Shown here: piece by piece, positions 6,056-7,841 of the stretch
Numbering within the stretch: the stretch's first letter is position 1
Layout: every line of letters starts with the position of its first letter
Notes under the pieces: generated by a model
The model's input: the letters and a program-made list of their open reading frames with translations, nothing else
What the model was told of the DNA's origin: nothing
Database searches by the model: none
Assembly: GCA_018648225.1 (NCBI GenBank)
Contig: JABGRQ010000112.1
Location: forward strand, 1-32,958
DNA from: Chloroflexota bacterium
GTDB taxonomy: Bacteria; Chloroflexota; Anaerolineae; Anaerolineales; UBA11858
Direction of reading: 5' to 3'
DNA: 32,958 bases
Made by a program: the position numbers and the translations under genes

Positions 6056-6751
6056 TTAGCGTCCCGCCGCCTGCGCGCACAAACTGGCCCCGCCGCGCCC
6101 CAGCCACTCATTTAACCGCTCACTTTGTGCTTTGCCCTGTTTGGCGTCTGCATAAATCCCTGTACCCCAATACACATACCGAATTGTCTCTGCGGGCCAA
6201 AAATATTCAGGGCGCATAGTCCCCATGATGCCGCCGTTGTAGCCTGCCAGCGCCAGGCGCTCATCGCCGCCGCGCGTATCCAGCGCGTTTTTCAGGTGCG
6301 CCAAACCTCGGAAGGCATTCGTTTCTGGGTCGTATGTATCCTCACCGAGCGAGAAATGATACGGCATCACCTGGAATAGCCCCATCGCCCCGGCATACGA
6401 AAGCGCCCGCGTATCTCCGCACGATTCAATCTGCATCACCGTAGCCGCCAAATTGGGGTCCAGGCCGTAGTGCTCGCTCCAGGCGGCAATTTCATCGCCC
6501 CAGCGTTGCACTTCGGGCGTAAAGAGGGGGGCAATCTTCCCGCTGTACATTGCTGTGTTTAGCGAACCATCGGCGGCAAGGGCAGTAATATCAATTTGCC
6601 CCAAGACAACCGTCATCAGCAGGCCCAGAATGAGCACAGTCAGCGGCGGCAAGGCCACGCCAAATGTGAGGCCAGTGAACCAAAGGCAGCCTCTGGATTT
6701 GTTTTCAGAGGCTGCCTGGCTATTGAAATGTTGAGTTGTGTGACGGGGCAT
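6056..6751 (-). CDS. Membrane-anchored lytic transglycosylase (SLT domain)
   Basis: This 231-residue protein has one N-terminal membrane segment (about residues 26-50) and a soluble goose-lysozyme/SLT-like domain (about 85-220). The likely catalytic glutamate is E109 in QIESCGDTRAL, followed by YAGAMGLFQVMPYHF and LALAGYNGG, the family signature. Such enzymes cleave peptidoglycan glycan strands. The 20-odd residues before the membrane segment contain an 11-bp inverted repeat (6685-6716), and no ribosome site is seen before ATG 6751, so the true start may lie further in. The upstream membrane-protein gene ends 35 bases away on the same strand, so co-transcription is likely. Confidence 0.85.
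   Translation of the reverse strand: MPRHTTQHFNSQAASENKSRGCLWFTGLTFGVALPPLTVLILGLLMTVVLGQIDITALAADGSLNTAMYSGKIAPLFTPEVQRWGDEIAAWSEHYGLDPNLAATVMQIESCGDTRALSYAGAMGLFQVMPYHFSLGEDTYDPETNAFRGLAHLKNALDTRGGDERLALAGYNGGIMGTMRPEYFWPAETIRYVYWGTGIYADAKQGKAQSERLNEWLGRGGASLCAQAAGR
6685..6716 (-). other. Inverted repeat in the 5' part of the transglycosylase gene
   Basis: GGCAGCCTCTG and CAGAGGCTGCC form perfect 11-bp arms separated by 10 bases. On the minus strand a short T-run follows (CCTTTGG). It could be a weak terminator or attenuator between the membrane-protein gene and the transglycosylase rather than ordinary coding sequence. Confidence 0.5.
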
Positions 6752-6786: not shown

Positions 6787-7542
6787 CTAAAATCGTGGCG
6801 TATTGTTGGGGCTGCGGTTTCCGTTGGATTTGCCAGTATCAGCGAAGGAAACGGGGTGGTAGGTGGGTTCTTGAGAGGCGAAATCGCCATCCGAATAGGT
6901 TTGCTTGGGCGCCGGGCTGAACGAGCGGGCGCGCACACCCTGAGTGGTAGTGGTCGAGCGCCGGTTGTTGTTCCATTGCTGGGGGCGGTTGCTACTCGAT
7001 TTACGCGTGGCGCTTTTCTTTGTGCTGCGTTGCGAGGTGCGCATATTCGACTGGCTGAAGATGCGGTCACCGGCGATGGAAATGGTGCCGATAATCAGCA
7101 CGCGGATCAGCCAGACCATGATGGCAACGAAGATGGGCACGACCTTGAGCAAGGTTGCGCGGGCGACGACGGCGTTGCCGAGGGTCTGGTGATTGAGGAT
7201 CGCAATCGAGACACCCCACCAGGTGAGCATGGCGTTCATCAGAGCGGCCAGCATCCAGGCGCCGAAGAGATACCAGACTTCAGCCGGTTCGTCGCGCCCC
7301 TGTTCGGGGGTGAAGAGCCGGGCGATACCGGCAAAGTCAATCCCGCAGAACGCGATAGAAAGGATGGTAGCCCAGCGGATACCGATGAACTTGAGATCGC
7401 CGAGTAAGTCGGTGAGAGCGAAATCGGTGGTGGAATAGTTGAAGATTTCGAAAGCCAACAGGGCGGTGACAATCAAGGCTCCAAAGAGCAAACCACGCTG
7501 CAGACGCATACGGTTAGGAAAGATAGAAAGACCAGACAACAT
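6787..7542 (-). CDS. Unknown four-TM membrane protein with basic low-complexity tail
   Basis: I do not recognise this 251-residue protein. Four hydrophobic segments are visible (about 17-35, 52-75, 89-113, 132-157). The last 90 residues form a hydrophilic tail rich in Ser, Thr, Arg, Asn and Gln with many basic residues, likely cytoplasmic and disordered. The start is ATG 7542 with GGAGG 7 bases upstream. A strong promoter and a LexA-like palindrome precede it (7615-7659). It is probably co-transcribed with the lytic transglycosylase. Damage-inducible control of a membrane or cell-wall function is possible, but nothing in the protein itself shows this. Confidence 0.75.
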   Translation of the reverse strand: MLSGLSIFPNRMRLQRGLLFGALIVTALLAFEIFNYSTTDFALTDLLGDLKFIGIRWATILSIAFCGIDFAGIARLFTPEQGRDEPAEVWYLFGAWMLAALMNAMLTWWGVSIAILNHQTLGNAVVARATLLKVVPIFVAIMVWLIRVLIIGTISIAGDRIFSQSNMRTSQRSTKKSATRKSSSNRPQQWNNNRRSTTTTQGVRARSFSPAPKQTYSDGDFASQEPTYHPVSFADTGKSNGNRSPNNTPRF

Positions 7543-7614: not shown

Positions 7615-7632
7615 TTAGAACGTCTGTTCTAA
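7615..7632 (-). promoter_or_regulatory. LexA-like operator
   Basis: TTAGAACGTCTGTTCTAA is a perfect 7-4-7 palindrome containing GAAC-N4-GTTC, the core of Gram-positive-type LexA boxes (Bacillus and Actinobacteria). It overlaps the -10 hexamer of the minus-strand promoter. A further half-site, TTAGAAC read on the minus strand (7646-7652), lies in the -35/-10 spacer. Binding would block polymerase. Another palindrome-binding repressor remains possible. Confidence 0.65.
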
Positions 7633-7659
7633 TATAGATTATATGTTCTAAAATGTCAA
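7631..7659 (-). promoter_or_regulatory. Sigma-70-type promoter for the four-TM gene and transglycosylase
   Basis: Read on the minus strand, TTGACA (7659-7654) is followed by exactly 17 bases and TATATT (7636-7631), a near-consensus promoter. Transcription would start near 7624, about 80 bases before ATG 7542. The LexA-like palindrome overlaps the -10 and the start point. Confidence 0.75.
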
Positions 7660-7841
7660 GCACCAGTTTCACGGTGAGTTCTCTGAGAATTCGGGGCAAT
7701 CTTTTCTTCGGTGGTGAAACTTGACAATATCAAAGTTGATACTTTGCGTGTGTTATTTCGAGACAACGGCGAGAAATCCCAGAAGGATCGAAAAATTTCG
7801 ACAGGTTGCTTGTTGAAATTTTCACGTAAGGGTGTATTTTC

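Follow-up and report, generated by a model that had tools for sequence, protein, structure and literature searches.

A LexA-type operator before a membrane protein and lytic transglycosylase gene pair in Anaerolineae: a probable SOS operon acting on the cell envelope

Operator, promoter and genes of the locus

The stretch of DNA analysed in our study (the window, 32,958 nucleotides), from an uncultured Anaerolineales bacterium (phylum Chloroflexota), carries on its minus strand a promoter followed by two genes, here named MP (membrane protein) and LT (lytic transglycosylase). The features of this locus are the following:

7654..7659, minus strand: -35 element TTGACA, a consensus also present in the aligned relatives
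7635..7650, minus strand: second LexA box inside the spacer, degenerate: TAGAACATATAATCTA, 2 mismatches
7631..7636, minus strand: -10 element TATATT, with a spacer of 17 bp to the -35
7615..7632, minus strand: LexA/SOS box without mismatch, TTAGAAC-N4-GTTCTAA, which covers part of the -10 and the probable start of transcription
6787..7542, minus strand: MP (251 aa), a membrane protein with four predicted helices that belongs to an undescribed family of Anaerolineae; SD sequence GGAGG
6847..6870, minus strand: conserved tail motif EPTYHPVS, MP codons 225-232, identified by alignment; the rest of the disordered tail is variable
6056..6751, minus strand: LT, the operon's second gene, for a predicted membrane-anchored lytic transglycosylase of 231 aa with an SLT domain (PF01464)
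6425..6427, minus strand: codon of LT E109, which is the IESCG glutamate and is the same in all 31 sequences compared

A sequence-only reading of this DNA had described a perfect palindrome over the -10 of a TTGACA-17-TATATT promoter, and our check of the window sequence confirmed it: positions 7615-7632 read TTAGAACGTCTGTTCTAA, with 0 mismatches to the palindrome, which covers the last two bases of the -10 element and then extends downstream through the likely transcription start. Judging by base composition, a perfect palindrome of the TTAGAACGTCTGTTCTAA type is expected about 8e-5 times per window and about 0.01 times per genome, and the one at 7615-7632 is the only perfect copy of TAGAAC-N4-GTTCTA in the 4.02-Mb genome. 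Its uniqueness in the genome, together with the class-wide conservation described below, led us to reject a chance origin. The same reading had also noticed a half-site in the spacer; this element is present, but we interpret it as part of a complete though degenerate box, TAGAACATATAATCTA (7650-7635), which occupies the position where, in the aligned promoters, the relatives keep a good box. Seen against that alignment, the spacer box of the window is a decayed one, with the perfect box lying just downstream of the spacer position. A separate inverted repeat, TATCAA-AG-TTGATA, is found at 7728-7741 of the window, just after a TTGACA and upstream of a divergent acetyl-CoA acetyltransferase-like gene; it is possibly the operator of another regulator.

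The motif at lexA, at recA and before MP relatives

The comparison with the lexA and recA promoters of the same genome, which had been proposed together with the sequence-only reading, was run and returned the same motif at both places. The lexA gene was identified at C69:50838-51518 (157 bits, with LexA_DNA_bind and Peptidase_S24 domains) and has two boxes upstream, CAGAACGAATGTTCAA and TAGCACAAATATTCTA; one box, TTGACAACTAGAACATTCGTGCTAAAAT, stands just upstream of a pair formed by a NUDIX gene and then recA. When 15 further genomes of the class were considered along with this one, an intact GAAC-N4-GTTC was found upstream of 11 of the 16 lexA genes; the other five lexA promoters are without an intact core box, which counts against our best explanation. 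A composite pattern consisting of TTGAC closely followed by the box has five matches in the genome, NUDIX-recA and the second MP gene copy among them, and 0 for the reversed control.

Several other observations were made on the motif and its presumed repressor. Two copies of a 74-aa protein (MTKVIIIQGGSLDSYYEQTLNYLHQKYHTYPSNLLDLHVDP...), at C49:13973-14197 and C216:165-390, both on the minus strand, each follow a composite LexA promoter; they have no match in Pfam and possibly represent a further SOS gene family. Two LexA-like boxes near C128:3167-3200 have an 81-aa ORF on their downstream (left) side, at C128:2805-3050 (minus strand), and two paralogous LuxR-type HTH genes (on C91 and C162) have a box with one mismatch just upstream of each. 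In the translations, the LexA self-cleavage site of this genome and of several relatives is Ala-Ser (IVASKP and similar); Ala-Gly is usual at this site.

Our scan of GTDB genomes yielded 302 MP-encoding stretches, of which the best 80 were kept, and the record titles of these 80 name Anaerolineales, Anaerolineae or other Chloroflexota. Among them, 79 relatives have enough upstream DNA, and 76 of these carry the box with at most one mismatch within 350 nt upstream (perfect in 44), against a background of 0.15% of random 350-nt stretches. Sites of this quality number 97 in the 28 kb upstream of the genes; the remaining 700 kb of these loci contain 3, which amounts to an enrichment of about 800-fold among relatives that are not independent of each other. 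The promoters align as TTGACA-3/4-TAGAACnnnnGTTC-TAtaaT, so that the spacer is taken up by the box, whose last TA is at the same time the start of the -10; 34 of 82 promoters have a second box, mostly about 26 bp away. All MP homologues fetched from other families have the box with at most two mismatches, and seven f12 genomes carry a perfect TAGAACAAATGTTCTA although the f12 protein is only about 30% identical. Across the sequences compared, the putative LexA site is a near-invariant property of the MP gene family.

The earlier proposal that the GAAC-N4-GTTC palindrome is an SOS box gains support from the motif at lexA and NUDIX-recA and from this near-invariance. The features expected of a LexA/SOS regulon member are found together at the window: its promoter is overlapped by a GAAC-N4-GTTC palindrome, lexA and recA of this genome carry that motif as well, and orthologues keep the site upstream. 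These features and the pairing of the two genes are seen directly in the DNA, and SOS control of the MP-LT pair is, on this strong support from comparative genomics, very likely. It is important to consider that the palindrome could belong to another repressor, or that LexA control could be accidental, and the genome does have another S24-domain match (on C95); we regard this as highly improbable, given that the motif is also found at lexA and recA, at most of the lexA genes tested, and before nearly all MP relatives (76/79).

The two proteins and their gene arrangements

The first gene had been described as a four-TM protein with a basic tail, and the 251-aa MP has indeed four predicted helices (16-47, 57-76, 86-117, and 128-172), followed by a disordered basic tail. 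In 103 MP sequences, the residues E32, F34, N35, A42, W57, L61, D69, G72, A95, W96, N103, W108, W109, P136, A140, and R147 are invariant, and the tail motif EPTYHPVS is kept in close relatives and absent from the distant f12 family. The AlphaFold model of the core only (103 sequences), with four long helices and a pLDDT of 79.7, was usable; an earlier model was poor (pLDDT 61.6). NCBIfam holds no match for MP, searches of Pfam and PHROGs gave nothing significant, and profile searches of PDB sequences returned no relative; judged by significant matches in Pfam and NCBIfam, MP shows no sequence relation to the described YneA/SosA/SulA/ChiZ-type families. Two candidate assignments were not accepted, namely DUF4834 (19.7 bits, below the cut-off, with only 4 of 50 members matching) and a weak Sie-like PHROG match (18 bits). 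Foldseek comparison of the model with PDB and BFVD returned nothing at E<=0.001, and a second structure aligner reached Z values up to 7.1, which is within the background for helical models; no known fold is therefore assigned to MP.

MP was found in 30 of the 199 genomes of our class sample and in 22 of the 251 genomes of our phylum sample, including nearly all sampled genomes of the window's order, and none of those listed lies outside the class. Many genomes have two MP copies, and the second is often without a neighbouring LT, which implies that MP does not need an LT neighbour, a point against our best explanation. The second copy of this genome, with two boxes upstream, is divided between contigs C59 and C57, whose starts each hold a part of it, apparently through an assembly break in a repeat. 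Where MP stands without a transglycosylase, as in three example loci, it is surrounded by a conserved set of four gene clusters particular to that copy.

The second gene, LT, starts 35 nt after MP, and its earlier description as a peptidoglycan-cleaving type of enzyme agrees with our domain analysis: the SLT domain PF01464 was matched with E 3e-17 and 62.7 bits, against a curated cut-off of 21.3, and transglycosylase activity with cleavage of peptidoglycan is predicted from the sequence. The motifs IESCG, GLFQVMP, and GYNGG, which include the GLxQVMP and YNGG signatures, are conserved, invariant or nearly so in 31 sequences, and E109 is presumably the catalytic glutamate expected in the SLT family. 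A hydrophobic segment is found at the N-terminus, and LT appears, on its sequence, to be membrane-anchored.

The pairing of the two genes takes different forms. MP and LT form a tandem in about 30 of the best 80 of the 302 loci, usually beside a histidine kinase and a response regulator, as in the window, and in 7 of 7 f12 loci. In 16 loci, the partner is a divergently oriented gene of a different transglycosylase subfamily; the MP promoter box then lies between the genes, and in several cases the transglycosylase has another box beside it. No MP was detected in family f21 within the class sample of 199 genomes; LT stands alone there, with a box upstream in 4 of 6 genomes (two perfect, one with 1 mismatch, and one with 2 mismatches). 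The tandem, divergent and LT-alone arrangements indicate that transglycosylases have been put under the same control.

A small membrane protein and a wall-cutting enzyme under LexA control resemble the layout of a lysis cassette, and the SLT domain of LT also matches phage lysis and tail families; MP could then be holin-like and LT endolysin-like, and an SOS-triggered self-lysis would kill badly damaged cells or release particles. We consider this unlikely for the following reasons. First, MP is strongly conserved, in nearly all genomes of the order and in a conserved chromosomal place, unlike phage lysis genes. Second, MP gave no match to a holin PHROG, no phage match by tblastn, and no viral fold at E<=0.001, although holins are very diverse. 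Third, LT appears to have its own membrane anchor, which would make a holin unnecessary for its export, and MP also occurs alone. SLT enzymes anchored in the membrane frequently assist secretion or pilus systems, which would fit a local opening of the wall for damage-induced transport (uptake or release of DNA, secretion or vesicles), with LT acting like VirB1-type enzymes and the invariant intramembrane residues E32, N35, D69, N103, and R147 of MP lining a path. This alternative is, in our judgement, even less probable than lysis; the conserved neighbours are the kinase-regulator pair and ribosomal genes, and no secretion, pilus or competence genes are among them. Both lysis and envelope transport are less likely than a checkpoint.

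A proposed checkpoint and its likeness to known systems

Taken as a whole, our explanation is that MP-LT is probably a LexA-repressed SOS operon that acts as an envelope or division checkpoint. LexA binding, induction by damage, wall cutting, and the checkpoint purpose are what we infer for it. LexA would occupy the palindrome at the -10 and, with low affinity if at all, the decayed spacer box, blocking RNA polymerase; RecA filaments formed on damaged DNA would then promote the self-cleavage of LexA, freeing the promoter, and the operon would supply the four-helix MP and a membrane-anchored LT facing the cell wall. Most likely, MP would position or hold back LT, or else the wall machinery of the septum, and thereby change how the wall is cut or the septum formed during DNA repair, a role that elsewhere falls to YneA, SosA, ChiZ or SulA. 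We favour the checkpoint because factors of this kind belong to SOS responses in other bacteria (SulA, YneA, SosA, DivS, and ChiZ), because the operon is stably inherited and not phage-like, and because LT appears to be membrane-anchored. The envelope or division response is suggested by the enzyme family and these precedents, and the sequences of MP and LT hold nothing that points directly to the divisome; taken alone, a role as wall or division checkpoint is a tentative reading that we place somewhat short of even. The same degree of reserve applies to a broader possibility, in which this would be an undescribed Anaerolineae SOS checkpoint, where a new MP family and a dedicated LexA-controlled LT remodel or hold the septal wall independently of SulA, YneA, SosA, and ChiZ, and differing gene arrangements recruit different transglycosylases.

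The repressor, the box core, and the enzyme class are already known. The MP family, its near-universal LexA control, and the MP-LT pairing appear to be undescribed in the libraries and open literature searched, a scope that leaves most subscription journals outside. Little has been published on the SOS response of Chloroflexota, and our searches of the open literature found no SOS regulon for Anaerolineae. That MP nearly always has a LexA-type site and is paired with a co-controlled wall-cutting enzyme suggests that remodelling of the envelope is central to how this group responds to DNA damage, and from the genomes compared, MP-LT looks like a conserved envelope-acting arm of the response across the class. 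The Anaerolineae are mostly uncultured, and the gene pair, its conserved residues, and the tail motif offer concrete material for tests.

The operator can be compared with the Gram-positive-type SOS box, since GAAC-N4-GTTC is the core of the LexA box in the SOS regulons of Bacillus subtilis and Mycobacterium tuberculosis (PMC3323433). The Anaerolineae box shares this core, its presence before lexA and recA, and its overlap with the promoter; it differs in longer, symmetric flanks (TAGAAC...GTTCTA) and in its exact placement within the 17-bp spacer in most relatives, and the MP gene family is not reported for other SOS regulons in the literature searched. Several SOS-induced factors that inhibit division or act on the wall have been described, among them SulA, YneA, SosA, DivS, and ChiZ/Rv2719c (PMC3989709, PMC6851548, PMC13396833), all LexA-controlled and directed to the envelope or septum; the likeness of MP-LT to them is one of working alike and not of membership, as MP differs in its four predicted membrane helices and in matching no family. 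ChiZ is itself an SOS-induced wall hydrolase (PMC3989709); LT is an SLT-type transglycosylase rather than a LysM protein. With the SLT lytic transglycosylases, LT shares the SLT domain, its nearest named families being MltC, EmtA, and flagellar or tail lytic enzymes; it scores far below the cut-offs of the named NCBIfam SLT enzymes and is set apart from them by its apparent N-terminal membrane anchor and its putative LexA control.
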